Positions 5,505 through 11,281 of a stretch of DNA of 64,000 bases are shown one piece after another (within the stretch, counting starts at the first letter, position 1; each line of letters begins with the position of its first letter). The stretch covers positions 186,001 to 250,000 of the forward strand of contig CANMOY010000001.1 in the NCBI GenBank assembly GCA_947499595.1, read 5' to 3'. The position numbers were made by a program, and so were the translations under genes. The notes beneath the pieces were generated by a model. It did not search any database. It had not been told where the DNA came from and worked only from the letters and a program-made list of their open reading frames with translations. This DNA comes from an uncultured Mesonia sp. (GTDB lineage: Bacteria; Bacteroidota; Bacteroidia; Flavobacteriales; Flavobacteriaceae).

Positions 5505-6410
5505 ATGCTTAGCATAAAGAAATACGCCGCAATAGACATTGGATCAAATGCAGTACGTTTGCTTATTGCAACCATAACTGAACCCCAAGAACAAGCCCCA
5601 ATTTTTAAAAAGACTTCATTGGTTCGGGTTCCTATTCGTTTGGGTGAAGATGTTTTTCTAAAAGGAAAGGTTTCAGAGTCAAATAAGAAGAGAATGCGAG
5701 ACACAATGCAAGCCTTTGCATTATTGATGAAATCTCATAAAGTTCTTAAGTATAAAGCTTGTGCTACCTCGGCTATGCGTGATGCAGAAAACGGCCAAGA
5801 ACTGGCACAAAACATTAAAGCAGAAACCGGTATAGATATCGAGATTATAGATGGTGAACATGAGGCTGCAATGATTGCAACCACCGACTTGAGAAATCTA
5901 ATACAAAATGATAAAAACTACTTGTATGTTGATGTAGGTGGGGGGAGTACTGAGCTTAGTTTCTTTACGGAAGGAAAAAAACTTGTTTCAAAATCTTTTA
6001 AAATAGGTACAGTACGTTTACTCAATGATAGAGTTGATGATAGTTTATGGGATGAAATGAAGGTTTGGATACAAAAGGTGACTAAAGGCTACACAAAAAT
6101 TTCGTTGATTGGTTCTGGAGGTAATATTAATAACATTTTTAAAAGCAGTGGAAAAAAAATAGGGAAACCTTTAAGTTATTTTTATTTAAGTTCTTATTAC
6201 CAGCTGCTAACCTCTTTAACCTATGAGGAGCGTATCGTTAAGCTTAATCAGAATGCAGATCGTGCCGATGTTATAATACCGGCTACAAAAATTTATTTGT
6301 CTACAATGAAATGGAGTAGGGCGCGTAAAGTTTATGTACCTAAAATAGGTCTAGCCGATGGAATTATTAAATATATGTACAATGAAGAGCAAAAGCAACA
6401 TATATTCTAG
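5505..6410 (+). CDS. ppx: Ppx/GppA-family exopolyphosphatase
   Basis: Actin-like-fold phosphatase releasing terminal phosphate from polyphosphate (or acting on pppGpp). The nucleotide/phosphate loop AIDIGSNAVRLL is at 9-20, ATSAMRDA at 87-94, the acidic IDGEHEA at 115-121 and DVGGGSTELSFF at 143-154. At 301 residues it has only the two-lobed catalytic domain and lacks the C-terminal HD-like extension of E. coli Ppx. Last gene of the pdxH-ppk1 group. Its stop overlaps by 4 nt the stop of the convergent small membrane gene. Confidence 0.92.
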   Translation: MLSIKKYAAIDIGSNAVRLLIATITEPQEQAPIFKKTSLVRVPIRLGEDVFLKGKVSESNKKRMRDTMQAFALLMKSHKVLKYKACATSAMRDAENGQELAQNIKAETGIDIEIIDGEHEAAMIATTDLRNLIQNDKNYLYVDVGGGSTELSFFTEGKKLVSKSFKIGTVRLLNDRVDDSLWDEMKVWIQKVTKGYTKISLIGSGGNINNIFKSSGKKIGKPLSYFYLSSYYQLLTSLTYEERIVKLNQNADRADVIIPATKIYLSTMKWSRARKVYVPKIGLADGIIKYMYNEEQKQHIF

Positions 6411-6578: not shown

Positions 6579-7196
6579 TTATTTTTTTTGGAAAATACAT
6601 ATGGTAAAATTTTGGTTTTTTTGGGTGGGTGTTTGATGATCTTCTTCAAAAAAATCAATAAGCTTAAAGTTGTTCCCAAAAATTATTTTTAAAGAGTCTT
6701 GGTTATGTTGTTTAACCGGTAAGCCACTACATTTTTCTGGACCATTTTTACTAAAGCTAGCAATGGCCAGATAGCCATTCTCAGCTACATACTCAGTAGC
6801 TCGTTTAGCATATTCATCAATTTGATTTTCGTCGTTAAGAAAATGAAATGCAGCTCTGTCATACCATAGATCAAAGCTAATTGATGTTTGAAAACTAGTT
6901 ACATCGCTAATTATCCAATTGATTTGTTTAGCATTAGTTCCTAATCTTTTTCTTGCTCTTTCAATCGCATTTTTAGATATATCGAGAACGTGAGCATTTT
7001 TAAACCCTTTTTCAATAAGAAAATCGGCAACAAAACTATCGCCGCCTCCTATGTCAATTATGACCGAATTTGCATTTAACTTTACACGCTGAACTACCTT
7101 TTTAAAAGTATCTACATTGGGCTGGTACCAACTAACAGTATTTAAGGGTTTGTTTTTATAGACGTCTTCCCAATGTTTTTGCATTTTGTTATCCAT
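6579..7196 (-). CDS. Class I SAM-dependent methyltransferase
   Basis: About 205 residues with a Rossmann-type SAM fold. Motif I is VIIDIGGGDSFVADFL, the acidic motif II follows in AHVLDIS, and the later WYDRAAFHFL resembles the catalytic region of thiopurine-methyltransferase-like and other small-molecule methyltransferases. I place the start at MDNKMQKHW (ATG at 7196) because it overlaps the miaE stop by 8 nt, whereas the longer frame to 7217 would overlap by 29 nt. Substrate unknown. Confidence 0.85.
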   Translation of the reverse strand: MDNKMQKHWEDVYKNKPLNTVSWYQPNVDTFKKVVQRVKLNANSVIIDIGGGDSFVADFLIEKGFKNAHVLDISKNAIERARKRLGTNAKQINWIISDVTSFQTSISFDLWYDRAAFHFLNDENQIDEYAKRATEYVAENGYLAIASFSKNGPEKCSGLPVKQHNQDSLKIIFGNNFKLIDFFEEDHQTPTQKNQNFTICIFQKK

Positions 7197-7770
7197 GAAT
7201 ACTATGTGTTTTACCAAGATTTTTCATTATTTCTGCTTCATACTCCAAAAGTTCATTCCACTTTTTATTCACGGTTTCTAAATCACCATATTTTCTGGCA
7301 AATCTTAAAAACATAGTATAATGGTTAGCTTCACTAATCATTAATTTTTTATAGAATAAGCGCAAATCTTTATCTTTTAATTGCTCAGATAATAACTTGA
7401 ATCTTTCACAACTTCTAGCTTCTATTAGTGCAGCATAAAGCAAACGATGTACCATTTGGTCTATTCGGCTTCCTCCCTTTGGGAAAAATTTAAGTAACTC
7501 TATAACATATTTGTCTTTTCGATCTCTTCCTAAAGCAAAACCTCTTTCTAAAATAAGGTCGTGAACCATTTTAAAATGACTCATTTCTTCCTGAACTAGA
7601 CTTATCATCTCTTTAACTAAATCTTCATATTCAGGAAAACTAACAATTAATGAGATAGCGGTAGACGCTGCTTTTTGCTCGCAAAATGCGTGATCTATTA
7701 AAATTTCCTCTATATTTTTTTCAGCTATATTAACCCATCTAGGGTCTGTTGGTAATTTTAGTCCTAACAT
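7189..7770 (-). CDS. miaE: tRNA 2-methylthio-N6-isopentenyl-adenosine-37 hydroxylase
   Basis: Non-haem diiron monooxygenase that hydroxylates the isopentenyl group of ms2i6A37 in tRNA, giving ms2io6A. The 193-residue ferritin-like helical bundle shows the diiron ligands: E31 in CEQKA, E62/H65 in EEMSHF, E117 in LIEARS and E147/H150 in SEANHY. It begins 1 nt after the end of the tau-specific dnaX frame, so it is co-transcribed with dnaX. The miaA and miaB genes it depends on are not in the window. Confidence 0.93.
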   Translation of the reverse strand: MLGLKLPTDPRWVNIAEKNIEEILIDHAFCEQKAASTAISLIVSFPEYEDLVKEMISLVQEEMSHFKMVHDLILERGFALGRDRKDKYVIELLKFFPKGGSRIDQMVHRLLYAALIEARSCERFKLLSEQLKDKDLRLFYKKLMISEANHYTMFLRFARKYGDLETVNKKWNELLEYEAEIMKNLGKTHSIHG

Positions 7771-7771
7771 A

Positions 7772-8433
7772 TTATTTTATATCTAAATCAAACAATCTTC
7801 TTAGTTTTTCTAAGTTGGAATTCTTTTGTACTAATTTGTCAAATTTTTCACGGCTTGTAAATGCATATTTTTTGGCGACCTCCTCATTAACCGCAATTGA
7901 TAAATCTACAAACGAGTTTTTTACCTGATTACGAATATAGCTAATTAGCGGTCCTTGTGCTCTTTCTAGTTCAACTTTCATTGTACTGTTGGGCAGGGTG
8001 ATATGTAAGGTTTTGTCTTTAAGACTTGGTCTATCGGTTTCTAGAATCGAGGCTAGAATTTTCTCTCCTTTCTTTTTTAATTTTAGAACATATTCATCCC
8101 AAGCCAATAGAGCTTCACTCTCCGTAAAACTTTCATTTAATTTTTTGGGCTGGTTTTCTTCTCGTTGCAATTTTTTCTGCTTCAGTTCCTTTTTCTTGTC
8201 AATACTCTTTAAAGACAAACCAGAAACGGATTTTGGTTTAGCTTTGCTTTTGACTTTATTTAAGTTAGAAGCGGGTGGTGGGTTGTGATCTTGCTTGTAA
8301 GGTGTTTTTTGATCTTTTACATTATCAACTTTAGCGTGGGCATGTTCTTGTGTTTCAATAACCTGTTTTTGTTCTTTTTTAACCGAAACAAAGTTACTGG
8401 CAGGAATTATGTAGGGTTCAGCGTTTTTTTTTT
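7772..8433 (-). CDS. dnaX: DnaX tau-specific C-terminal region, reached by slippage at the A10 tract
   Basis: This open frame lacks an ATG of its own: its first in-frame start-like codon is a TTG at 8218, yet the frame stays open back to the A10 run at 8424-8433. Reading one base back, or with one extra A, joins ...EGKKK to NAEPYIIPASNF and gives a 573-residue tau-like protein. The joined part has a proline/lysine-rich linker followed by a compact domain (SEALLAWDEYVLKLKKKGEKI through REKFDKLVQKNSNLEKLRRLF). That is the kind of C-terminal domain tau uses to contact the polymerase. It is therefore not an independent gene. miaE follows after 1 nt. Confidence 0.8.
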
Positions 8434-9492
8434 ACCTTCTGTAATCGAAGCGAGTTGCATTAAGCATAATTCTACCAAAAGTCTCTGGTTCTGCGCTCCC
8501 TTATACTTGAGATCACAGGAATTTGCCAATTCAATTGCTTCTTTTAGAAAATCGGTGTTCGCTAGTTGGGCTTGTTCAAAATATTTCTTTTTAGTTTGCT
8601 CCCCTACTTCTAATAGTGCAATTGTACTTTGTTCTTTACAAATAAATAAATCTCTAAAATGGGCAGCTAAACCGGCAATATAATGTTGACCGTCAAAGCC
8701 CTTTGCTAGCACCGAATTAAATTGCAAAAGAAGTTGCGGTATATTTTGATTTAGGATGTGCGTGGTTGCCTCAAAATAAACTTCATAATCTAAAACGTTT
8801 AAATTTTCAGCCACAGCTTGCCTAGTCAAATTTGAGCCACTAAAACTAACTACCCTATCATATATTGAAAGCGCATCGCGCATGGCCCCATCTGCTTTTT
8901 GAGCAATTATGTGTAAAGCATCATCTTCGGCTTGTATTCCTTCTTGTTGAGCTATTTTAGCCAAATGGTTTTTAGCATCTAAAACACTTATTCGCTTAAA
9001 ATCGAATATTTGGCAGCGCGATAAAATGGTTGGAATAATTTTATGCTTTTCTGTAGTCGCTAAAATAAAAATGGCGTGGTTTGGCGGTTCTTCTAAAGTT
9101 TTTAGAAATGCATTAAAAGCACTCGTAGAAAGCATATGCACCTCATCAATAATATAAACCTTATACTTTCCCGTTTGAGGGGGAATGCGTACTTGATCGG
9201 TTAGAGAACGAATATCATCGACAGAGTTGTTTGAAGCCGCATCAAGTTCAAAAATGTTAAACGCAAAATCTTGCTCTATTTCGTTTTGTGCTTGTTGATT
9301 GATTTTCTTTGCTAAAATTCGAGCACAAGTAGTTTTACCAACACCTCGAGGCCCTGTGAAAAGAAGCGCTTGAGCTAAATGGTTGTTATTAATCGCGTTT
9401 TGCAATGTGTTGGTAATTGCGCGCTGACCTACCACATCCTCAAAAGATTCTGGTCTATATTTTCTTGCTGATACTATAAAATGTTCCATCAT
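8407..9492 (-). CDS. dnaX: DNA polymerase III gamma subunit (zero-frame DnaX product)
   Basis: AAA+ clamp-loader ATPase that opens and loads the beta clamp. The 361-residue zero-frame product has Walker A GPRGVGKT (47-54), Walker B with IIDEVH (114-119), the ELDAASNN segment (82-89), sensor 1 near ILATTEK (143-149) and the SRC arginine finger (158-160). The zinc-binding cysteine cluster found between Walker A and ELDAAS in E. coli DnaX is absent: that stretch (AKKINQQAQNEIEQDFAFNI) has no cysteine. The frame ends soon after the A10 tract. Two tandem ATGs (9492, 9489) begin the gene. Confidence 0.95.
   Translation of the reverse strand: MMEHFIVSARKYRPESFEDVVGQRAITNTLQNAINNNHLAQALLFTGPRGVGKTTCARILAKKINQQAQNEIEQDFAFNIFELDAASNNSVDDIRSLTDQVRIPPQTGKYKVYIIDEVHMLSTSAFNAFLKTLEEPPNHAIFILATTEKHKIIPTILSRCQIFDFKRISVLDAKNHLAKIAQQEGIQAEDDALHIIAQKADGAMRDALSIYDRVVSFSGSNLTRQAVAENLNVLDYEVYFEATTHILNQNIPQLLLQFNSVLAKGFDGQHYIAGLAAHFRDLFICKEQSTIALLEVGEQTKKKYFEQAQLANTDFLKEAIELANSCDLKYKGAQNQRLLVELCLMQLASITEGKKKTLNPT
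8423..8434 (-). other. A10 slippery tract in dnaX (gamma/tau switch)
   Basis: On the minus strand the coding sequence reads GGT, ten A, then CGCTG. The zero frame (GGT AAA AAA AAA ACG CTG) ends 7 codons further at TAA (8407-8409), giving gamma. The run contains the canonical heptamer A AAA AAC for -1 ribosomal slipping, and its length also suits RNA-polymerase slippage as known for Thermus dnaX. An AGAAGG lies directly upstream. I see no strong stem-loop just downstream, which tilts me toward transcriptional slippage. A homopolymer sequencing error cannot be excluded. Confidence 0.75.
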
Positions 9493-9494
9493 CG

Positions 9495-9502
9495 CAAATA
9501 TA
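9495..9502 (-). promoter_or_regulatory. Candidate -7 box of dnaX (TATATTTG)
   Basis: The minus strand reads TATATTTG, matching the Bacteroidota -7 consensus TAnnTTTG, only 2 nt before the first ATG. Transcription would then start at or within the tandem ATGs, implying a leaderless or nearly leaderless dnaX mRNA. No clear TTG element is seen at -33. A short inverted repeat (CAGATT, six bases, AATCTG) lies just upstream in the spacer. Confidence 0.4.
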
Positions 9503-9580
9503 GCAGATTATTTTAAATCTGTGCTTGCCTAGAATGACTTAAATTTAGAAGCATAAAAAGTAAATTTGAGCTGTCTAGGT

Positions 9581-9607
9581 TTGCTTTTAAATTAAATATT
9601 ATCTTTG
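9581..9607 (+). promoter_or_regulatory. Promoter of rnpB (TTG-N16-TATCTTTG)
   Basis: A TTG at 9581-9583 (within TTTG) and TATCTTTG at 9600-9607 match the Bacteroidota -33/-7 elements, with 16 bases between them. The predicted start about 6 nt further falls at 9613, where the first strand of RNase P helix P1 begins. This agreement makes it the best-supported promoter in the window. Confidence 0.75.
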
Positions 9608-9612
9608 CAAAA

Positions 9613-9913
9613 AAGTAGGCCGTCTTATCGCTTTCAATTTATTGAAAGAGGAAAGTCCGGACACCACAGAGCAGTATAATGGCTAACGGCCATCAATTGT
9701 GAAATTAGGACAAGTGCAACAGAAAGAATGTACAGGTTATGCTGTAGTGAAATCAGGTAAACTCTATACGGTGCAATGTCATGTAAACCAACTTTAAGAC
9801 TTGCTCGGTCATTGTTGGAGGGTAGACAGCTAGAGGTTTTTGGTAACAAAAACTCCAGATAAATGATAAGATTTTCTTTTTAGAAAAACAGAATCCGGCT
9901 TATAGGCCTACTT
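9613..9913 (+). ncRNA. rnpB: RNase P RNA component (class A type)
   Basis: Catalytic RNA that removes 5' leaders from tRNA precursors. The ends pair as AAGTAGGCC (9613-9621) with GGCCTACTT (9905-9913), forming P1. Universally conserved blocks are present: GAGGAAAGTCCGGAC (9648-9662), the ACAGAAAG and GGTAAACTC segments in the middle, AGATAAATGAT (9857-9867) and ACAGAATCCGGCTTATA (9888-9904). The length of about 300 nt fits the bacteroidotal form. Its 3' end meets the stop codon of the convergent rsmD gene; a T-rich tail follows at 9912-9920. Confidence 0.95.
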
Positions 9914-10449
9914 TATTTTTTAAAAAAACTAAAAACTGATCCGCCATAGCGACGTTCGTCTACGAAATAGGCTAAACTTGATAAAGGCGTAATTTTTGGA
10001 TGCTCTATTATAAGTATTCCTTCGTCTTTTAGGTGTTGTTGGTTAAATACTAACTGTACAAGTTCTTCAAATTGGTCTGTGGTAAAGTCGTAAGGAGGGT
10101 CTGCAAAAATTAAATCAAAAGTTTGATTAGCACTTTTCAAATAAGTGTAAACATCTTTTTTTATAGTATTAATTTGAATTTCTAAGGATGCGCTGGTTTG
10201 ATTTATAAATTTTATGCAATTATAGTGCTTGTCAACTGCCGTGATTTTAGTGCAACCTCTTGAAGCAAATTCGTAGCAAATATTACCAGAACCAGCAAAT
10301 AAATCCAGTACGTTTAATTCTGTAAAATTATAAGTATTATTTAAAATATTAAACAGGCCTTCCTTGGCGATATCGGTTGTTGGCCGAATAGGCAGTTTCT
10401 TAGGAGCTGTTATGCGTTTACTTTTAAACTTTCCTGAAATGATTCTCAT
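9913..10449 (-). CDS. rsmD: 16S rRNA (guanine(966)-N(2))-methyltransferase
   Basis: SAM-dependent methylation of G966 in 16S rRNA. The 178-residue length is typical. The conserved N-terminus MRIISGKFKSKRI is followed by RPTTDIAKEGLFNIL, SAM motif I DLFAGSG (49-55) and the catalytic DPPY (117-120). It begins 4 nt after the DUF3822 gene. Its stop codon abuts the 3' end of rnpB tail to tail with no spacer, so unterminated rsmD transcripts would be antisense to RNase P RNA. Confidence 0.95.
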   Translation of the reverse strand: MRIISGKFKSKRITAPKKLPIRPTTDIAKEGLFNILNNTYNFTELNVLDLFAGSGNICYEFASRGCTKITAVDKHYNCIKFINQTSASLEIQINTIKKDVYTYLKSANQTFDLIFADPPYDFTTDQFEELVQLVFNQQHLKDEGILIIEHPKITPLSSLAYFVDERRYGGSVFSFFKK

Positions 10450-10453
10450 AATT

Positions 10454-11281
10454 TTATGAATATAAATGGATGAAGCTCTGTTTTGTTTCTAGATTTTTAG
10501 TATCTGTTATTTCTTTATTTATTTTAACGTTTACAAAATATTTATACATTAATTTGTATAAAGCACTTTCTTGGTTAAGAGGAGATAAGAATTGCAATGG
10601 AATTTCTTGTGGTGAGATACTCAATTGTTCAAATACAAAAAGCGTATAGTACAAAAAGTCTTCTTTTGAAGTATAAGGGTACACATTGCACAATTTTAAT
10701 TTATCGCCCTGATATATGCACAGAAAAAAATAATCTGTAAAAGCAGTAACTGTTGTAGTGAAATCTTGCGCTATATTTTTTTTTGCTATCCCGTGTGTTT
10801 TTTCTATTATATTAGAGGCAAGATGATTAAAGTTGAAATCGCCAAAATTTTCAATAAAAAAGTTGTTAATTGCTGTAAAGGGTATGAAAATTAAACTTAA
10901 ATCTAAAGGTTTAATAGTATCTGTATATACCTCATCTGTAGCTAGAATTTTAGTATTATATTGTAAATATTGAGCGGCGCTTAAATTGGTATAGTAGGGG
11001 GTAGGGACTACAGTAAAAAGCCTGTTAGCATAAGTCACCCTAAGTTGTTTAATAGCTTCTCTGAAATCTTTTATTTGAGGAAGAAATTCCTGCTCGAGAA
11101 GCTTAAGTAATTCAGCTATACTCAAACTATTTGAAGCCCATTTCTCTGTTTGAAAAAGAATTCCATTTTGATCCTTTACAAAAAAAGAATATCCATCTTG
11201 AGCAATCAAGATGGATAAACTATAATTTATTTTAGTAGGTGTATTACTCACTAGATCCGTATACTTTTGGCCAGTTTCCAT
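10454..11281 (-). CDS. DUF3822 family protein
   Basis: A 275-residue soluble protein. The opening (KINYSLSILIAQDGYSFFV), the central FIPFTAINNFFIENFGDFNF and the later TTTVTAFTDYFFLCIYQGDKL match my memory of DUF3822, a Bacteroidota family of unknown role. The alternating strands resemble a two-lobed actin-like fold, which is inference only. It overlaps the upstream membrane gene by 38 nt and is followed at once by rsmD, so it belongs to that three-gene operon. Confidence 0.8.
   Translation of the reverse strand: METGQKYTDLVSNTPTKINYSLSILIAQDGYSFFVKDQNGILFQTEKWASNSLSIAELLKLLEQEFLPQIKDFREAIKQLRVTYANRLFTVVPTPYYTNLSAAQYLQYNTKILATDEVYTDTIKPLDLSLIFIPFTAINNFFIENFGDFNFNHLASNIIEKTHGIAKKNIAQDFTTTVTAFTDYFFLCIYQGDKLKLCNVYPYTSKEDFLYYTLFVFEQLSISPQEIPLQFLSPLNQESALYKLMYKYFVNVKINKEITDTKNLETKQSFIHLYS

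Follow-up and report, generated by a model that had tools for sequence, protein, structure and literature searches.

A ten-adenine run at the gamma/tau border of dnaX in an uncultured Mesonia sp. and its relatives: probable slippage of RNA polymerase

The dnaX locus and its two frames

The window, the whole stretch of 64,000 nucleotides that was analysed, contains on its reverse strand a dnaX gene that is divided between two reading frames. The gene, its features and its neighbours are listed below.

5505-6410, + strand: Ppx/GppA phosphatase
6579-7205, - strand: methyltransferase domain
7189-7770, - strand: MiaE-like tRNA hydroxylase
7772-8431, - strand: tau-only frame of dnaX (-1 or +1A register), 219 codons from stop to stop, with a linker and the C-terminal domain
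8407-9492, - strand: zero frame of dnaX, the gamma form, 361 aa (ATG at 9492, stop TAA at 8407)
8407-8409, - strand: TAA that ends gamma, an out-of-frame TAA within the tau motif YIIP (TAC ATA ATT CCT)
8418-8420, - strand: third-frame TGA, for transcripts with -1A or +2A, AAA CGC TGA, read from the sequence
8424-8433, - strand: A10 run, the putative slip run of dnaX (T10 on the + strand), read from the sequence
8436-8450, - strand: weak hairpin CTTC-GATTACA-GAAG, 4 bp, 2 nt 5' of the A10 run, -1.7 kcal/mol
9913-10449, - strand: Cons_hypoth95 methyltransferase
10454-11281, - strand: DUF3822

A single base separates the tau stop codon from the ATG of the MiaE-like gene.

The sequence-only reading had described a 361-residue zero frame that ends soon after ten A residues and a downstream frame, in the -1 (or +1A) register, that lacks an ATG and carries a DnaX-like C-terminal domain; the observation was borne out. 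Around the run, the zero frame reads GAA GGT AAA AAA AAA ACG CTG AAC CCT ACA TAA, with five codons between the third AAA of the run and the gamma TAA. The gamma form is laid out as an AAA+ ATPase, a lid and domain III, followed by KKKTLNPT. In the -1 or +1A frame, the same region gives KKKNAEPYIIP... and a joined product of 573 aa. The first usual start codon of the tau-only frame is a TTG at 8218, and its single Met (in STMKVE) lies deep inside the C-terminal domain. The heptamer A AAA AAC that had been pointed out does occur in the tract, though in the -1 register; read in the zero frame, the heptamer is A AAA AAA.

Profile searches of dnaX with Pfam returned DNA_pol3_delta2 and DNAX_ATPase_lid above cut-off and DNA_pol3_gamma3 below it (21.8 versus 24.4 bits), and the NCBIfam model TIGR02397 (dnaX_nterm) matched the gamma frame with 387 bits. 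The matches to NCBIfam PRK14971 (614 positions) divide between the two frames, positions 1-367 falling in the upstream frame and 411-613 in the downstream frame (E 1.9e-19), from which we conclude that a normal tau is split at the border of gamma and the tau-only part. There was no Pfam match in the tau-only part at E up to 0.1, and Rfam gave none in window positions 7700-9600 at E up to 1. The genome holds a single dnaX; three further matches are weak.

Conservation of the run, the tau phase and the nearby stops

The survey of relatives drew on 313 dnaX loci, 16 of which were dropped as duplicates by their N-terminal DNA, leaving 297 distinct genes; in six of these the tau frame could not be identified, in three cases (L020, L047 and L118) owing to the end of the contig. 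A first genome set entered with 58 of its 60 genomes (G039 and G059, without a dnaX-level match, were left out), the family set with the best 150 of 292 matching genomes (299 searched), and a set of named records with the best 80 of the matches listed. "Flavobacteriaceae" here means the family code of the window (168 genes) or a named record (79 genes, 77 of them placed in Flavobacteriaceae by NCBI taxonomy and two placed to order only). The run "at the border" was taken as the longest A run in the interval, of at most 300 nt, that separates the codon aligned to residue 340 from the tau domain, a definition under which the run sits well downstream in some distant genes.

The alignment of relatives that the sequence-only reading had proposed shows that the A run is conserved at this border: at least nine A were found in 289 of the 297 distinct genes, and exactly ten in 243, counts that do not represent independent events because the species are related. 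The eight genes without a run of at least nine A are L044, L054, L061, L190, L306, L309, L310 and L316. Elsewhere in the same gene, the longest other A run reached nine in 7 of 291 genes and was shorter in the rest. Given the peptide and the codon usage of each gene, the mean chance of an unbroken run was 0.43 per gene (228 zero-frame genes with the run). Even between members of the genus, synonymous sites approach saturation (dS 1.9 between L007 and L010). Among Flavobacteriaceae, the run of at least nine A is present in 246 of 247 genes, with exactly ten in 217. Outside the family it was present in 43 of 50 genes (19/21, 15/16 and 9/13), shares that are not representative, the phylum set having matched in 116 of 118 genomes and having been examined through 30 loci and 12 hand-picked ones.

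The run persists whichever frame encodes tau. Of the 291 assignable genes, 232 have tau in the zero frame, 49 in -1 and 10 in +1, and a run of at least nine A is retained in 228, 47 and 10 of these, respectively. For the Flavobacteriaceae (n = 247), the corresponding numbers of genes are 205, 31 and 9, with two unassigned. When phase was placed on a FastTree phylogeny of the 291 N-terminal parts, 33 changes (two states) were required, compared with 54 when labels were shuffled, and at least 13 when only the starred branches are believed; the large tree has many weak forks, and its starred branches deserve limited trust.

Four genes (L286 from G287, L242, L253 and L118) have 13-14 A at the same border, more than the usual ten, and tau of L286 is in +1. 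All five g146 genomes examined (L168, L172, L173, L175 and L177) are of the split -1 type with A10, as are two loci titled Flavobacterium (L130 and L132), so that Flavobacterium may often have the split type. Two relatives without a nine-A run have tau in -1, with CC A AAA AAG TAG in G055 (L054) and GAA AAG TAA in G035 (L044). Both motifs sit where the zero frame ends, and the G055 heptamer is E. coli-like; these two genomes may have switched from transcriptional slippage to ribosomal frameshifting.

In the window, the two non-tau frames stop 5 and 1 codons after the run; stops in both of these frames within 10 codons were found in 277 of 285 genes, compared with 37% when random positions in the N-terminal part of these genes were taken. 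The tau motif YIIP/FIIP, which hides the gamma TAA, was found in 204 of 285 genes. In 202 of these 204 the codon of its first Ile is ATA, which gene-wide makes up about 25% of Ile codons; the next Ile is ATA in 36 of 200. A Ser right after the run is encoded by AGC in 64% of 115 zero-frame A10 genes of Flavobacteriaceae, compared with 9% expected, and AGC following AAT creates a TAG in the +1A frame. Thermus dnaX likewise has stops in both non-tau frames (PMC1088944, PMC5009743).

A hairpin immediately 5' of the run

Across 285 junctions, the 70 nt upstream of the run fold better than shuffled sequences and the 70 nt downstream do not. The element CTCTATCA-CTTT-TGATGGAG stands immediately 5' of the A run, verbatim, in 110 of the 285 genes, and other genes have hairpin variants that differ in letters, loops and peptides. 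With bulges allowed, a hairpin of -4 kcal/mol or better that ends at most 3 nt from the run was found in 210 of 244 Flavobacteriaceae genes, compared with 9.8% of 410 control positions, and in 185 of these 210 the spacer to the run is 0. By tau phase, such a hairpin is present in 181/205 zero, 20/30 -1 and 9/9 +1 genes; it is missing in 34 of the 244. The mean folding z over the 244 genes was -2.95 for the 28 nt upstream, -0.20 downstream and 0.01 for the control. Perfect stems beat synonymous-codon shuffles (p<0.05) in 166 of 205 zero, 16 of 30 -1 and 7 of 9 +1 genes. Outside the family, a perfect stem of -4 kcal/mol or better was present in 9 of 41 genes and was better than synonymous shuffles in 2 of 41.

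Synonymous constraint, analysed in 192 genes, is concentrated at codons -8 to +8. The constrained codons include Ala -7 (GCC in 85% versus 28% expected), Ile -5 (ATC, 94% versus 14%), Gly -1 (GGA, 93% versus 27%) and Ile +8 (ATA, 96% versus 23%). Of the 40 codons beyond these limits, most deviate little from expectation; the strongest deviations are Cys -12 (+0.30), Gly +18 (+0.29), Leu -16 (+0.22), Arg -18 (+0.19) and Lys +16 (-0.25).

Gapless covariation in an 8-bp geometry was set aside as evidence for the hairpin, two of six slid controls having exceeded the stem in both-sided pair changes (81 and 79 in the controls slid by -3 and -2, compared with 76 in the real stem). The fraction of paired cells was 0.689 in the real stem versus 0.457 and 0.459 in the same two controls. 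Paired fraction and both-sided changes exceeded all 500 shuffles, and pair types gave no excess (26 versus 25.5 in shuffles). The case for the hairpin therefore rests on synonymous constraint and placement.

The 4-bp hairpin of the window occupies the place of the 7-8 bp hairpin of its relatives. In the three species of its clade it was matched by synonymous shuffles (p 0.07-0.21), and the bulge-tolerant fold found no hairpin in L001 and one of -4.4 with a different pairing in L006. Because the window hairpin is weak and matched by shuffles, the hairpin supports the mechanism in the family and, for the window, only probable ancestry: the ancestors of the window gene probably had the hairpin of the family, and a role for the hairpin may not apply to the window itself.

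Probable slippage by RNA polymerase and its alternatives

A split dnaX is found in three of the 16 genomes of the genus (the window genome, G005 and G012), and the other 13 have one open frame. All three split genes have exactly A10, the same TAA and nearly identical flanks. The split state is probably derived within the genus, because tau is zero-frame in the remaining 13; the three split species group as one clade beside L007/L017 in a careful tree, with modest support (81/65). The stretch between a Thr codon and the run measures 9 nt in the split clade versus 13 in L007, while the two do not differ in run length or in the 10 nt that separate the run from the YIIP/FIIP motif, so the frame changed by remodelling before the run and not by a change in run length. 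Among the three species, synonymous divergence of the N-terminal part (dS) is 0.15-0.53. The frame transition has been kept in all three, the dN/dS of the tau-only frame being 0.041-0.045 in the three pairs (dS 0.19-0.46), and because of this low ratio tau is probably still made in the clade.

These comparisons bear on two readings under which the split would not be a working switch, both of which we consider unlikely because the three species share A10 and the split and have a low downstream dN/dS. Under one of them the homopolymer was misassembled or missequenced, and the gene in fact has A11 and one frame. The genome is a draft of 70 contigs, homopolymers are often misread by a single base, and such errors may underlie some of the isolated odd run lengths in the survey; yet an identical A10 and split in three different species, with an N-terminal dS of up to 0.53, and a frame change that, relative to L007, accompanies a shorter pre-run stretch at equal run length make this reading scarcely credible. 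The sequence-only reading had named an 11-A run, and relatives with a continuous frame and no homopolymer, as findings that would count against a slippage switch: the assemblies of the window and of the two near species all have A10 (3/3), and the 13 single-frame relatives of the same genus carry the homopolymer. The other reading is a disrupted dnaX that makes gamma only, its downstream frame being a relic or a separate, internally started protein. It would account for a zero frame that ends just past the run, and the TTG at 8218 could serve as a start in the tau frame, but the purifying selection across that frame, the lack of an ATG before the C-terminal domain, and the run and out-of-frame stops maintained in relatives of all three phases make it very improbable.

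A further alternative is that tau is made by -1 ribosomal frameshifting on A AAA AAA (AAA AAA AAA ACG), a mirror of E. coli dnaX. The in-register heptamer is present and would yield the same tau, -1 is the commonest of the non-zero tau phases (49 of 59), and the E. coli-like heptamer of G055 suggests that ribosomal shifting may serve some lineages. In the window, three downstream stretches gave z from -1.65 to 0.07; the lowest value belongs to the first 70 nt after the run (14 of 200 shuffles as good), and the E. coli control itself reached only -1.74 (45 nt) and -1.10 (70 nt), which makes the test weak for any one gene. A 7-nt site, however, needs no 9-10 A, +1 tau in 10 of 291 genes is unreachable by a -1 shift, and a hairpin touching the run would presumably be inside or covered by the ribosome at the slip site. 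The sequence-only reading saw no evident downstream stem-loop, and no excess of downstream structure was found over the set (285 junctions, with the mean z of -0.20 in 244 Flavobacteriaceae genes). The AGAAGG ahead of the run had been dismissed as a normal stimulator for being too close. It does lie one base from the run, and we likewise consider it an improbable stimulator, on changed grounds, because Shine-Dalgarno sequences reportedly go unrecognised by Bacteroidia ribosomes (PMC9976891); the motif overlaps the 3' arm of the weak hairpin. We regard ribosomal frameshifting as an unlikely source of tau in the window.

Based on these comparisons, we place at about 0.8 the probability that gamma and tau are made by RNA-polymerase slippage on the A10 run of the window dnaX and not by a ribosomal shift. 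Transcriptional slippage is favoured because the run is conserved in all phases, both non-tau frames have stops, a hairpin lies upstream in relatives and there is no excess of downstream structure; opposite shift directions among orthologues are, in addition, a published sign of transcriptional realignment (PMC3711429). The proposal of the sequence-only reading, that gamma (361 aa) and tau (573 aa) arise by slippage and more likely at transcription, is still the best reading, now drawn from conservation, and its reasoning has largely been replaced by the conservation, the stops and the upstream hairpin in relatives.

Under transcriptional slippage, RNA polymerase would slip on the A10 run and produce mRNAs with differing numbers of A. 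In the window, faithful A10 messages, and those in the third frame, would stop within a few codons and give gamma, and translation of mRNAs with one extra A would continue through the C-terminal domain, yielding tau. The A10 run of most relatives is in the tau frame, so that there faithful copies would give tau and slipped copies gamma. Selection would keep the slip site and the nearby stops, and an indel in or near the run could swap the roles of the two products. Slipping is probably stimulated, in Flavobacteriaceae, by a hairpin that the nascent RNA forms immediately 5' of the run, at the position of an intrinsic-terminator hairpin: as the RNA-DNA hybrid is 9-10 bp (PMC5009743), a hairpin abutting a 10-nt run that fills the hybrid would stand at that position. 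Slippage itself, RNA polymerase as its agent, the ratio of the products and the part played by the hairpin are all inferred from sequence.

By its sequence, the window dnaX belongs to a published kind. Antonov et al. (2013) describe 17 two-ORF dnaX genes from 12 genera, nine of them with A10, in which tau needs recoding, and suggest transcriptional realignment for these nine (PMC3711429); as in those genes, the window has two ORFs joined by a DNA-level -1 shift with ten A at the junction. No mention was found in that paper of the run in genes with zero-frame or +1 tau, the abutting hairpin, synonymous constraint or repeated reversals. In the open-licence literature searched, the hairpin-plus-A10 cassette, +1-phase genes, synonymous constraint and a count of reversals were not found, and a supplementary figure of Antonov et al. 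may show part of this.

Three other systems resemble the window gene in part. Thermus thermophilus dnaX (A9) also makes gamma and tau from one gene with a long A run (PMC1088944, PMC5009743), and the window gene shares with it at least nine A and stops in both non-tau frames. In Thermus, however, tau is in the zero frame, whereas the window has gamma there; the Thermus arrangement is that of 205 of the 247 Flavobacteriaceae genes, and the window clade has tau in -1. E. coli dnaX likewise yields the pair from one gene at an A-rich site, but it does so with an in-register A_AAA_AAG, a Shine-Dalgarno stimulator and a downstream stem-loop (PMC3711429), which were not found here in that form; the window reads AAA AAA AAA ACG. 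RNA-polymerase slippage in a Roseiflexus insertion sequence is reported to be stimulated by a stem-loop that the nascent RNA forms immediately 5' of the slip motif (PMC5009743). Most Flavobacteriaceae dnaX genes examined similarly have an inverted repeat directly 5' of the slip site, but the Roseiflexus motif is T5C5 with a single-base deletion, whereas the window has A10 and a weak hairpin.

For the family as a whole, we lean towards the view that dnaX of Flavobacteriaceae carries a slippage cassette, consisting of a terminator-like hairpin touching A10 and stops in both non-tau frames, in which slippage is what is selected, so that the frame assignment drifts and has been reversed many times, the window clade being one reversal with a decayed hairpin. 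According to Atkins et al. (2016), a single nucleotide is enough to swap the roles when efficiency is near 50%, dnaX being their example (PMC5009743). If the family-wide view is true, a core replication gene of a large bacterial family depends on an error of RNA polymerase, and the hairpin-plus-A10 signal would be directly usable in a reporter. The purpose of gamma in E. coli is a matter of "considerable controversy" according to the same review (PMC5009743); natural reversals, in which the slipped product is either tau or gamma, would make the importance of a fixed gamma:tau ratio and the purpose of gamma testable. For annotation, such genes can resemble frameshifted pseudogenes or sequencing errors.

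The A10 run of dnaX is the longest homopolymer of the whole window. An argument from the rarity of A10 was dropped, as the genome of the window has 44 overlapping A10 matches; the 30 with loci represent 21 distinct runs, eight of which are in ORFs of at least 100 aa. Because A10 runs recur in ORFs of this genome, A10 by itself proves little. Elsewhere in the same genome, two coding-strand A10 runs lie 88 nt apart (G000:C1:321569-321578 and 321657-321666; L322 and L323) inside an apparent single long ORF (860 and 840 aa within the two 3,010-base loci), which is possibly another slippage gene.
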